34,958 bases of DNA, taken from the IMG/VR virus record IMGVR_UViG_3300035670_000750, positions 1-34,958 of that record, one strand, 5' to 3'. A program made the position numbers and the translations under genes. The stretch is from a virus. This document shows positions 25,524 through 28,724 of this stretch, piece after piece (the stretch's first letter is position 1; each line of letters starts with the position of its first letter). The notes below the pieces were generated by a model. The model searched no databases and was not told where the DNA came from. It saw only the letters and a program-made list of their open reading frames with translations.

Positions 25524-25835
25524 ATGGGTAAACGAAAAATCAGGGTTAACAATCCCGAGTTCACTCCCGAGATTGAACGGGATTGGGTCAGGGTTTGGTA
25601 TCCGTATGACGAAAATGCATTTACGGATGTTGTTCTGTCGCTATTGGAGCGCAACGACTGTGTGGTGATTGGGCGAGGGGCGCAGATTAAAAGCCTGAAA
25701 AGACTGTTCAGCGTAACCATTCGGCTTCGGTTGATGGATGTGTTACCAGATTGCCCGCACGAATTGGGCGTTGAGGTTTATTTCAAGGAACTTTCAGAAG
25801 CCGTGTTGTTCAAGCTGACGTATGGAGGTGGGTGA
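25524..25835 (+). CDS. Small FKLT-motif phage protein, paralogue 1
   Basis: 103 residues. The C-terminus (YFKELSEAVLFKLTYGG) matches those of the genes at 25835 and 32729. Proteins with an F-K-L-T-x-G-G end after an acidic E-A-x-L segment are, from memory, common in phages and of unknown function. The N-terminal half is basic, then WVRVWYPYDENAFTDVVLSL. The start ATG follows GGAGG by about 7 bases and comes right after the leader terminator. First gene of the replication operon. Confidence 0.75.
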   Translation: MGKRKIRVNNPEFTPEIERDWVRVWYPYDENAFTDVVLSLLERNDCVVIGRGAQIKSLKRLFSVTIRLRLMDVLPDCPHELGVEVYFKELSEAVLFKLTYGGG

Positions 25836-26089
25836 TGGAATGGACGCCTTCACGCCTTTATAAAGAGCTTATGAGCAAGAAATCATACGATGATATGGAG
25901 AGAGTTGACGTTATAGGAACATTGAGGGTTGGTGGTTGGTATATGCTGAATAAAGAGAGGCGAGATTGGATTGAGGAACACGTTTCCGCTGGCGAGTGTG
26001 AGATTGATTACTACATTCGCGTTCCGTTTGTACGTTTCGCCAATGTTGATGATGAGTTGTTGTTTAAACTGACATTGGGAGGTGTCTAA
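25835..26089 (+). CDS. Small FKLT-motif phage protein, paralogue 2
   Basis: 84 residues, ending RFANVDDELLFKLTLGG, which aligns without gaps to the C-termini of the proteins at 25524 and 32729. The rest differs (SRLYKELMSKKSYDDMERVD, then WIEEHVSAGECEIDYYIRV). ATG 25835 overlaps the previous stop by one base; GGAGG is 6 bases upstream. Its stop overlaps the primase ATG (TAATG), so it is coupled to replication. Confidence 0.75.
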   Translation: MEWTPSRLYKELMSKKSYDDMERVDVIGTLRVGGWYMLNKERRDWIEEHVSAGECEIDYYIRVPFVRFANVDDELLFKLTLGGV

Positions 26090-27027
26090 TGAGGTGGTCA
26101 TATGTGAAAAGCTTCTATAGCGCGAAGGCTCAGAAATGGGTTCCAGCCGCGCACTTGGTTTCCAACCGGGAAAGCACGGATTGGAACGCCTTCGTGGTGG
26201 AAATGATTGGGATGTGGGAAGCCCCCCAGGAAGAGAAGGCCAAGGCCGATCTTGTCAGCCCTGCCTTCTATGGCGGCAACCAGTACCGCAAGGATGAGAA
26301 CGTTCTTGGGTGGGATATGTTGTTCTTGGACGTGGATAACGATGACCCATCTAAATACCTCAGTCACGCGGGGATGATGGAGTTCCTTGGGGCCTTCGGG
26401 CTGAACTTCCTCATCTACAACAGCCCCTCATCTACGGTGGATGCGGAGCGTTATAGGGTGGTGATCCCACTGAGCCGCACGGTTGATGCGGATGAGGTGA
26501 AGCCCTTGTGGAAGGCGATGTGGCAATTCACCGGGGGCTTGGGTGATCCAGCCTGTAAGGACCGCTCACGGGCCTATTACGTGCCCGGTCAGTATCAGGG
26601 GTGTGATAGCCCCTTCATTGAGGGAGAGGTGAACGGCAAGCCCCTGGATGTGGATTGGTTGATTGGGGCCTATCCTCCCCCGGCTCCGGTGGTTCCCCAG
26701 GCGGCGCAGGAAACGGAAGGGATGGATGGGTTTAGGGACAAACTCGTTAAGGCGTCCGTCAAGGCGTATCACCGGGGGATTTTTGATAGCAACCTTGTGA
26801 CCAAGACCATCTTGGAAGATTACACGTCTAACAAGGCCGGTAGCTATCACCTGGGAATGTATACGGCATTGTGCCGCATCGCAGGACGGGCAAAGACGAT
26901 GGGTTATCCGTTGACGGAAGCGGAGTTGTTCCAGATTGCCCGTGAGATTGATTTTTATGATGGTGGTTTTTATTCAGACGAAAAACTTAGAGCCGAAGCG
27001 AAAGACGCTATGGCGTATGTGTTTTAA
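26089..27027 (+). CDS. Archaeo-eukaryotic primase (AEP)-like replication protein
   Basis: 312 residues. The N-terminal domain carries AEP-type signatures: MLFLDVDNDDP with D81 and D83 as likely metal ligands, LIYNSPSSTVDAERYRVVIP near 108-127 (the S-x-x-x-x-x-x-x-R-Y/x-R-V/h-V-I/h-P-L motif of primase-polymerases from plasmids and phages) and CKDRSRAYYVPGQYQG near 156-171. The C-terminal 100 residues are helical. Such proteins prime DNA synthesis at plasmid-type origins with a helicase. The start overlaps the previous stop. A helicase follows after a 12-base gap. No separate DNA polymerase exists in the genome. Confidence 0.8.
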   Translation: MRWSYVKSFYSAKAQKWVPAAHLVSNRESTDWNAFVVEMIGMWEAPQEEKAKADLVSPAFYGGNQYRKDENVLGWDMLFLDVDNDDPSKYLSHAGMMEFLGAFGLNFLIYNSPSSTVDAERYRVVIPLSRTVDADEVKPLWKAMWQFTGGLGDPACKDRSRAYYVPGQYQGCDSPFIEGEVNGKPLDVDWLIGAYPPPAPVVPQAAQETEGMDGFRDKLVKASVKAYHRGIFDSNLVTKTILEDYTSNKAGSYHLGMYTALCRIAGRAKTMGYPLTEAELFQIAREIDFYDGGFYSDEKLRAEAKDAMAYVF

Positions 27028-27039
27028 GGAGGATTGATT

Positions 27040-28521
27040 ATGAAGTGTGGAGTTGATTCAAACATTTTCAGCAAGTACGAATTCAACGATCAGGCTTGGG
27101 GTGATCCCTTGAAGCCGGGTCACAATGAGTTGTGGTGCTATCTGGCCCAAATCTGTGTCGCTAAGGCGAACGGTGGGTTCTCGGTCAAGGATAAGGTGAC
27201 TGGACGGTTCACCGAAGTGAGTAGTGCCAAGCTGGCTATCAACAAACTGACGAACGAATGGGCCGGTATGGTGACGCTAAAGAGCGGTGCCAAGCAGGTT
27301 GTGACCAGAAAGGAAATGGAAGAGTTCGTCAATACCGTGTGCCCGATCTTGGAACAGACCGTGTGCATTCCGTTCGCAGAACCGTTCTTGGTCTTCAATG
27401 CCACCAAGCGCCTAAACACCTTCGTGGACACAATCAAGCGCCCGGTGGAAGGAAATGTGGTCTATCTGGAAGAGTTCTTGCGGATGATCCGTCAGGCATT
27501 GTGCGCCCAGGAAGGTGAAAAGACGCTTGAGGAAATGATTGACGAAATCAACAACCCCAATGGCTCTAAGGAATTTCGTTTCGTCATCCACTGGTTGGCG
27601 GCGATCTACCAGAACCCAGGCATCAACCTTCAAACCAATATGTGGTTGGTCGGTCGGATGAAGGGCATTGGTAAGGGTACGTTGATGCGCGTCCTGGCGG
27701 GGATGTTCGGTTGCCTGATGGGCAAAGCCTCGCAATCCGATATGGAACGCGGTTGGAATGACTTCGTAGAGGGCAAGCTGATTGTGGAGGCGGATGAGTT
27801 CAAGGCTACCAGTAAGGTGGACTTCAACGCCCTGATTAAGAGGGATACCACCAACCCAACAATCTCAATCGCCAAGCGTGGCGTTACCCCCTATGTGGTG
27901 CCCAACATCACGAATTGGATTTTCACCACGAACGATGAAGAGCCGATCATTCTGGAAGATGATGATAGGCGTAACGTGATGATTAAGACCACCACGGATA
28001 GTGCGTGGAGAGAACGAAGCATCCGTTTCAATCTGTGGCTGGATGAAGACGGCAATATGATGAAGGTCGTTACCGGCTTTGCAGCACTCTTGAATAACGT
28101 GGTGGTGGATAAGGTGTTGATCCAAAGGGCGTTTGAAACTGAGTTGCGTAAAGATATGCGCGATAGCAGCAAGAATGCCGTTGAGGTTTGGGTTGAAACC
28201 CATATGGACAATCGTTTCCGTGGTCGGGAAATGACGCCGGAAGAGTTGTATGCCGATTATTTCGCCCCGTGGGCTGCGGTCTACTATGAGAACACCTCTA
28301 TCAAGTCCGCGAAGGCGTTGGGTAAGGCACTCACTGCCCTCACGGGTATGGATGGGATGGTGAGTAAGCGCCGTGCCAATTCAGGTATCCGCTACACCAT
28401 CGCCCCGGTTGACATTGAGTATGAAGGCGAGGTTACGACTGATTGGAAGGCCAATGCCTGTAGGGTCGGATATGACAAAGTGACGGATTTGAACGCCATT
28501 CGTCGCAGATTGAGGGATTGA
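27040..28521 (+). CDS. SF3-type replicative helicase (P4/D5-like)
   Basis: 493 residues from ATG 27040, 8 bases after AAGGAGG. Walker A is GRMKGIGKGT (about 205-214), Walker B is KLIVEADEF (about 246-254), and motif C is NWIFTTNDEEP with sensor N298. An arginine finger DDDRRNVM follows at about 307-314. The K-x-D-T-x-N-P region between them (ALIKRDTTNPTISIAKRGV) is characteristic of phage/plasmid primase-helicases of this group. It should unwind the origin in the 3'-5' direction as a hexamer. The primase-like partner is immediately upstream and the putative origin immediately downstream. Confidence 0.88.
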   Translation: MKCGVDSNIFSKYEFNDQAWGDPLKPGHNELWCYLAQICVAKANGGFSVKDKVTGRFTEVSSAKLAINKLTNEWAGMVTLKSGAKQVVTRKEMEEFVNTVCPILEQTVCIPFAEPFLVFNATKRLNTFVDTIKRPVEGNVVYLEEFLRMIRQALCAQEGEKTLEEMIDEINNPNGSKEFRFVIHWLAAIYQNPGINLQTNMWLVGRMKGIGKGTLMRVLAGMFGCLMGKASQSDMERGWNDFVEGKLIVEADEFKATSKVDFNALIKRDTTNPTISIAKRGVTPYVVPNITNWIFTTNDEEPIILEDDDRRNVMIKTTTDSAWRERSIRFNLWLDEDGNMMKVVTGFAALLNNVVVDKVLIQRAFETELRKDMRDSSKNAVEVWVETHMDNRFRGREMTPEELYADYFAPWAAVYYENTSIKSAKALGKALTALTGMDGMVSKRRANSGIRYTIAPVDIEYEGEVTTDWKANACRVGYDKVTDLNAIRRRLRD

Positions 28522-28724
28522 GGTGTAGAAAAGGTGTAGAGTGTAGTTTGCGAAAATCAAACTACACCACCCTCAAACCCTTGTGTAGCAAGGGCTGTGT
28601 AGTTGTGTAGTGTATATACTATTATTATTATTATTATTATTATATATATATAGAATAGAGAGCTATTCTACACAGCACTTCTACACTCAATCCTACACGG
28701 GGGTATTTCGGAGTTGGTCAGTTG
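28522..28724. other. Putative origin of replication with GTGTAG iterons
   Basis: A 203-base gene-free stretch directly after the helicase. GTGTAG occurs six times on the + strand (28523, 28534, 28541, 28583, 28597, 28605) and four times inverted as CTACAC (28562, 28668, 28681, 28693). Three perfect hairpins are present: 9 bp (28541-28549 with 28559-28567), 6 bp (28578-28583 with 28589-28594, loop TGTAG) and 8 bp (28651-28658 with 28663-28670). Between the two groups of boxes is an AT-only tract of about 30 bases made of ATT and AT repeats (28620-28651), a plausible unwinding element. Confidence 0.7.

Follow-up and report, generated by a model that had tools for sequence, protein, structure and literature searches.

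How does a short-tailed phage in which no DNA polymerase can be recognised start and sustain the copying of its genome? The question is raised by IMG/VR record IMGVR_UViG_3300035670_000750, a 34,958-base record of a virus of bacteria, which we analysed over its full length and refer to as the window. Between its positions 25,524 and 28,724 lie genes for an archaeo-eukaryotic primase (AEP) and a superfamily 3 (SF3) helicase, and a sequence-only reading had described the whole as a T7-like virion combined with a plasmid-type AEP and SF3 replicon. The gene content so described is confirmed, and the interpretation stands in part: a virion module in T7 gene order is joined to an AEP, an SF3 helicase, an integrase and a candidate origin, but the term plasmid-type is not supported. 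Overall, we think it rather probable that the window is a complete, probably temperate podovirus genome with an HTVC010P/Uetakevirus/BPP-1-like virion, replicating from its own iteron-type origin by SF3 initiation, AEP priming and host elongation.

The likely origin initiator is the SF3 helicase encoded at 27040-28521 on the forward strand, where an ATG at 27040 follows AGGAGG and the listed open reading frame (ORF) begins at a TTG at 27034. The protein is of the DUF5906/VapE type (DUF5906 in Pfam, 1.2e-13), and the full set of SF3 motifs ascribed to it earlier is present: Walker A GRMKGIGKG (residues 207-215), Walker B GKLIVEADE (247-255), motif C IFTTND with its asparagine (296-301) and, for the arginine finger, DDRR (310-313). 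By sequence, its only informative solved relative is the C-terminal region of the NrS-1 primase (phmmer against 6k9c/6k9e, 9e-11), and the modelled residues 113-458 have the SF3 fold, with Z scores of 25.7 to that region and 18.9 to SaPI5 Rep. The primase-polymerase of NrS-1, a Nitratiruptor phage, also combines an AEP, a helix bundle and the window's SF3 type, but it does so in one polypeptide, and its AEP half has no sequence match to the AEP of the window. A multi-sequence helicase alignment was tried as a search query and rejected as too divergent.

Directly upstream, at 26089-27027 on the same strand, is the gene for a stand-alone AEP primase of 312 amino acids, with an AEP domain at about residues 1-196 and a helix-bundle domain at about 225-312. 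The sequence-only reading had called this product AEP-like and proposed a profile search as the check. No Pfam family matched at E<=1, the plasmid-type Prim-Pol profile PF09250 included, and that result alone would speak against the assignment; it is overturned by PHROG primase families, with E values down to 1.5e-27, and by the comparison of folds. In an AlphaFold2 model made with 30 sequences (predicted local distance difference test score 83), the solved structure that matches best is the AEP domain of the S-2L PrimPol (6zp9; Foldseek 9e-6, Z 9.6 over 159 residues), followed by weaker matches to RepB', CAPP, PriS and LigD; a match to the NrS-1 helix bundle (6a9w) covers residues 225-312. 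For the whole model, Z values to NrS-1 (5.6-5.8, with high root-mean-square deviation) are too weak to use, the helix bundle excepted, and the AEP sequence profile matched no solved structure. Across the 30 sequences D81, D83, R123, D158 and R161 are invariant. D81-x-D83 forms motif I, S112-P113-S114-S115 a loop, and K157-D158-x-S160-R161 is conserved among relatives; the metal-binding acidic residues are present, D158 being assigned to motif III by sequence context and not by superposition. No histidine is conserved between motifs I and III. Because the motif II histidine, though usual, is family-specific and replaced in several AEP families (PMC5862659), its absence does not exclude membership, and on its modelled catalytic fold we place the protein in the AEP superfamily.

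The 176 bp directly after the SF3 stop codon (28523-28698) are a strong candidate for the replication origin, with putative binding by the initiator. This segment holds six copies of GTGTAG (28523, 28534, 28541, 28583, 28597 and 28605) and four of CTACAC (28562, 28668, 28681 and 28693), which together are 10 of the 14 copies in the genome and its tightest 6-mer cluster. The six forward copies and one inverted copy stand to the left of a 33-bp pure A/T run (28620-28652), and three inverted copies to its right; this run, the window's only one of at least 15 bp, is a candidate unwinding element. Dinucleotide shuffles of the segment (n=2000) contained at most three copies. At least five copies of one 7-mer are found within 400 bp downstream of 11 of the 22 related SF3 genes, as against 1.3% of the 2158 stretches taken as controls within these loci. 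The window scores 4 in this 7-mer count, its repeat core being six bases; the relevant measure for it is the 6-mer count, 10 as against 7 in the next best stretch. The same downstream repeat layout is visible in Moraxella phage Mcat1, and further arrays of iterons immediately after DUF5906-type SF3 genes were noted in many phages, at loci L013 (5494-5800), L255, L257, L258, L260, L262, L265, L267 and L269.

An SF3 initiator with short repeats and an A/T-rich element beside its gene is also the make-up of iteron replicons of the SaPI/P4 kind. The initiator helicases Rep of Staphylococcus aureus pathogenicity islands (SaPI) and Cch2 of staphylococcal cassette chromosomes (SCC) have iteron origins at the same place, directly downstream of the gene (PMC7581432), and pRN1 has a stem-loop origin there (PMC4234260). 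However, the SaPI, SCC and P4-like replicons use other primases and belong to satellites or islands, not complete phages.

The two proteins keep different company among their relatives. A profile scan of IMG/VR confirmed 522 AEP relatives, a lower bound, and the nearest of them, the best 80 loci of at least 522, are stand-alone primases; a PolB gene lies in the fetched flank of 74 of these 80, a DnaB-type helicase in 12 and an SF3 match in none. Such stand-alone primases, found in Vibrio phages V6Aob/12B8, phage C48C1 and many IMG/VR contigs, are about 27-33% identical to the window's AEP over nearly the full length and share its AEP and helix-bundle architecture, but they occur near PolB and DnaB-like or other P-loop helicases and not near SF3. 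The 18 IMG/VR relatives of the SF3 protein mostly carry a TOPRIM-type primase within the same chain (DUF3854 in nine, Toprim_3 in seven). The sequence-only reading had proposed looking for related elements in sequenced genomes, as prophages and as circular plasmids; the 398 Pseudomonadota genomes surveyed held no full-length AEP match and only five weak partial ones, and a plasmid collection gave three partial AEP records and one SF3 record. The AEP of the window is thus a phage primase type and not a plasmid type. Because AEP relatives mostly adjoin PolB while SF3 relatives mostly carry TOPRIM, the two proteins seem to descend from separate phage backgrounds, and the pair suggests a hybrid replicon in which the AEP would do the job of the TOPRIM primase carried by most SF3 relatives.

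Whether the missing genes mean anything depends on the completeness of the record. Its bases 1-121 are identical to 34820-34940, within a proline-rich ORF between a GNAT gene and the portal gene, which we take as the sign of a circular or permuted genome, about 34.82 kb long, closing on itself; a true terminal repeat is the less likely alternative. The overlapping record ends extend to 1-138 and 34820-34957, where the last 18 bases, a C-rich tract, resemble sequencing noise. Because the ends overlap, the gene list is probably complete and, in a closed genome, gene absences are meaningful. As the sequence-only reading had noted, the genome has no recognisable gene for a DNA polymerase, an RNA polymerase or a ligase: PF00476 had no match in any of the six frames of the record, and no scanned ORF matched a polymerase or ligase family in the Pfam and PHROG scans, RNA polymerase and ligase being without a dedicated profile search. 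The window accordingly falls outside the T7 group (Autographiviridae), which has its own RNA polymerase and DNA polymerase A. No tRNA was found in the window either. The absence of DNA and RNA polymerases is not strange, as publications describe the same for the virion clade closest to the window, the HTVC010P type, in which Skadi is described as using the host RNA and DNA polymerases (PMC10504331); cyanopodoviruses without a DNA polymerase have also been published (PMC9860041).

The replication operon is preceded by a likely control region. A sigma-70-like promoter, TTGACA-18-TATGAT (25207-25236, forward strand), agrees with the consensus at 11 of 12 positions and faces the operon; its assignment is putative, the scan as a whole having found fewer sites than shuffles. 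The forward-strand leader that follows (25240-25523) is structured, with hairpins at 25283-25319 and 25412-25456 and a third at 25464-25501 just before the first gene, and none of 200 shuffles was as stable (fold z -3.6). Its 11-base upstream segment GAGCCTGGAAA (25378) is complementary to TTTCCAGGCTC (25478) in the loop of the third hairpin. No RNA family in Rfam matched the leader, which may serve as an attenuator or in copy-number control. The first two genes of the operon are small forward-strand ORFs without an assigned function in our scans, at 25524-25835 and 25832-26089, the stop of the second overlapping the AEP start. A C-terminal motif like LFKLTxGG is common to three small proteins, encoded at 25521-25835, 25832-26089 and 32675-33037. 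Upstream of the promoter, a 49-bp direct repeat of 84% identity (24507-24555 and 25108-25156) flanks the gene at 24552-25085, each copy with a possible short hairpin GGATTG/CAATCC.

Taken together, these features suggest the following scheme. The SF3 protein would be expressed from the promoter and structured leader at 25.2-25.5 kb and would bind the GTGTAG repeats downstream of its own gene through the C-terminal part common to NrS-1 and SaPI Rep, form a ring and melt the DNA at the A/T run. Priming would then fall to the AEP, its helix-bundle domain recognising the template, and extension of the primer to the host replicase (Pol III), which is proposed because the genome has no recognised polymerase of its own. 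With its integrase the phage would be able to enter lysogeny by integration; the serine recombinase may serve to resolve multimers.

Several points weigh against this scheme and the reading behind it. Residues 1-137 of the SF3 protein were modelled without confidence, and we claim nothing about them. Identity to the SF3 relatives is only about 20%, which makes the grouping with TOPRIM-bearing proteins a loose one. The searches gave no close relative that has this AEP and SF3 pair, and conservation therefore lends the unit no support. As to lysogeny, the window shows no recognisable repressor, excisionase or attachment site, and no prophage copy was seen. Lastly, some AEPs, such as that of NrS-1, are polymerases themselves, and the host-polymerase step is less certain for that reason.

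The last point opens the alternative that survives best, that the AEP is a primase-polymerase copying the entire genome, a role that has been proposed in phages NrS-1 and S-2L, with no need of a host polymerase for elongation. The window shows no other recognised polymerase, its SF3 protein is closest to the helicase region of the replicative PrimPol of NrS-1, and the S-2L PrimPol, the best solved match of its AEP, is described as the sole possible polymerase of that phage (PMC8065100). The S-P-S at AEP residues 112-114 also resembles the SPS loop of NrS-1, which binds the incoming nucleotide (PMC8718748). However, these letters are not conserved among the AEP relatives, which mostly have S-T-A-S-S, and where PolB stands beside the gene, as in 74 of the best 80 relatives, the AEP is most simply only a primase. 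We hold genome copying by the AEP to be possible but improbable. A minimal two-protein replisome, in which a PolB-associated primase family was recruited to an SF3/iteron origin, replaced the TOPRIM primase of the helicase and became the phage's only DNA polymerase, seems distinctly doubtful.

Profile matches confirm the T7 order claimed for the structural genes: portal, scaffold-like, capsid, tail tubes A and B, gp13-like, gp14-like, phrog_684 and a T7-type fibre N-terminus, with the terminase large subunit (TerL) upstream. All those located here are on the forward strand. The portal, or head-tail connector (359-2020; phrog_332, 1e-109), is nearest to that of HTVC010P (34%), as is the major capsid protein (MCP; 3598-4473; phrog_3437, 2e-63; HTVC010P, 3e-76). 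They are followed by tail tubular proteins A (4556-5119; phrog_394) and B (5126-7129; phrog_376; 41% identical to HTVC010P) and, by profiles, an internal virion protein block (7129-15374) with gp13-like and gp14-like genes, two unmatched large ORFs and phrog_684. The large proteins of this region at 8246-10447 and 10447-12807 had no PHROG family and no Pfam family above the cut-off. An RCC1-type repeat protein, a beta-propeller, is encoded at 16346-18145 and is placed as a tail or fibre gene. For TerL (33039-34367), the best phage matches, at 37-41%, come from HTVC010P-type pelagiphages and from Rhodoferax phage P26218. Among isolated phages, those nearest to the window are HTVC010P-type pelagiphages and not T7 (portal 30-34%, TerL 37-39%, tail tube B 41%), with TerL, portal, MCP and tail tube B all giving best or near-best matches to them. 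Yersinia phages YeP4-6 and phiV10 come next by portal, and a Bbp19-like gene fits the BPP-1/epsilon15 side of the group.

HTVC010P and Skadi resemble the window in TerL, portal, MCP and tail tube B (33-41%), in a size of about 35 kb and in having no DNA or RNA polymerase. They differ in replication genes. Skadi has a helicase loader and no virus-encoded primase or helicase (PMC10504331), and HTVC010P has a DnaA-type helix-turn-helix protein and ERF, with no AEP, SF3 or integrase annotated; host-dependent replication without an own primase or helicase, typical of this group, does not describe the window, which has an AEP and an SF3 helicase. In Uetakevirus phiV10 and YeP4-6 an integrase and a repressor accompany T7-ordered virion genes, but phiV10 has DnaT/P-type loading, and YeP5 has PolA together with a helicase and a VapE-type primase. 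A similar plan is seen in MW202898, a circular podovirus from Manatee Spring, and IMG/VR contig G412, which join the window's virion type to a tyrosine integrase and to AEP and SF3 functions; in MW202898 an A/T run with flanking inverted repeats follows the SF3 gene, as in the window. In both, however, the AEP (PF09250) and SF3 parts are fused in one protein with PolA beside it. The combination of this virion with AEP, SF3 and integrase is thus already known; new here are the split AEP and SF3 pair, the different AEP family, the lack of PolA and the candidate origin directly downstream of the helicase gene.

Both recombinases named by the sequence-only reading were found by Pfam as well. The tyrosine integrase (20184-21824, reverse strand), with a DUF6538 domain and a long N-terminal extension such that its true start may be internal, is intact with its catalytic domain (PF00589, 8e-9; phrog_1, 3e-32). 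Its nearest matches are mainly on alphaproteobacterial plasmids. The small serine recombinase, or resolvase (30111-30782, reverse strand), is 59% identical to recombinases of Microvirga plasmids, and a weak imperfect dyad just upstream of its gene (30795-30830; 15-nt arms, 87% complementary) is a possible recombination site. The two recombinases give a weak indication of an alphaproteobacterial host. Because an integrase is present, integration is likely and the phage is probably temperate. A search for tRNA-like attP sequences gave two matches, the chance level, and a single genome-contig scan, made with a glutamine-rich portal pattern and poor peptide patterns, returned four distant loci only.

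A second alternative, that this is an ordinary virulent HTVC010P-type phage with a recently acquired or inactive integrase and resolvase as cargo, draws on its nearest isolated virion-module relatives, which are lytic pelagiphages, and on the missing repressor. By tail tube B the window is nearest to a set of 21 longer IMG/VR contigs, many of them fragments, and only four of these carry an integrase; among the same 21, PolA occurs in two, an SF3 gene in one (G412) and an AEP of the window's family in none. However, the two closest, G402 and G403, both carry an integrase, the window's own is intact, and HTVC010P-related genomes have been linked to SAR11 through integrase and att matches (PMC3861242). 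T7-type tail tube B genes were present in 20 of the 398 sampled Pseudomonadota genomes, and such virions are therefore not rare in bacterial genomes. Around these genes, 18 of the sampled genomes and four further genome loci showed no AEP of the window's family or close SF3 match, except a YeP5-type primase in one. We regard a virulent life as unlikely.

The sequence-only reading also raised plasmid persistence, which is possible given the resolvase's plasmid relatives and a putative self-initiating origin. In its strong form the prophage would be a circle outside the chromosome, maintained by the resolvase together with the AEP/SF3/iteron replicon, with the integrase secondary. A candidate iteron origin with its own initiator, a leader that could control copy number, a contig that closes on itself and a resolvase whose relatives sit on alphaproteobacterial plasmids, one with repB and repC, would all fit. 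However, no partition gene (ParA/ParB-like) or toxin-antitoxin was recognised among the scanned ORFs, relatives of the AEP and SF3 proteins are almost absent from plasmid records, and a permuted linear phage genome is also expected to give a closed contig. Microvirga plasmids of 40 kb, considered as related phage-plasmids, have no phage structural genes annotated and were rejected. An extrachromosomal prophage is, in our view, quite improbable.

An assembly chimera of a podovirus and another element is highly unlikely: the nearest relatives of the replication genes do differ from those of the virion genes, but the overlapping ends make the contig self-consistent, base composition is even along it, these phages as a rule exchange replication modules in mosaic fashion, and contig L005, which covers the structural side only, has identical MCP and tail tube B proteins. 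Apart from L005, single-protein IMG/VR scans with SF3, MCP and tail tube B gave no close relative.

The favoured reading, a probably temperate podovirus with its own iteron-type origin, bears on how replication modules move among phages. One virion clade is now seen with host loaders, with PolA and a fused Prim-Pol/SF3 protein, and with a split AEP and SF3 pair and a compact candidate origin, which speaks for free swapping of replication modules among short-tailed phages. Aquatic phages carry the AEP family widely (over 500 IMG/VR loci), although the window's protein matches no Pfam family and the family profile, by sequence, no solved structure. Iterons downstream of the SF3 gene may be a general rule, one that yields testable predictions of the origin for many related phages.

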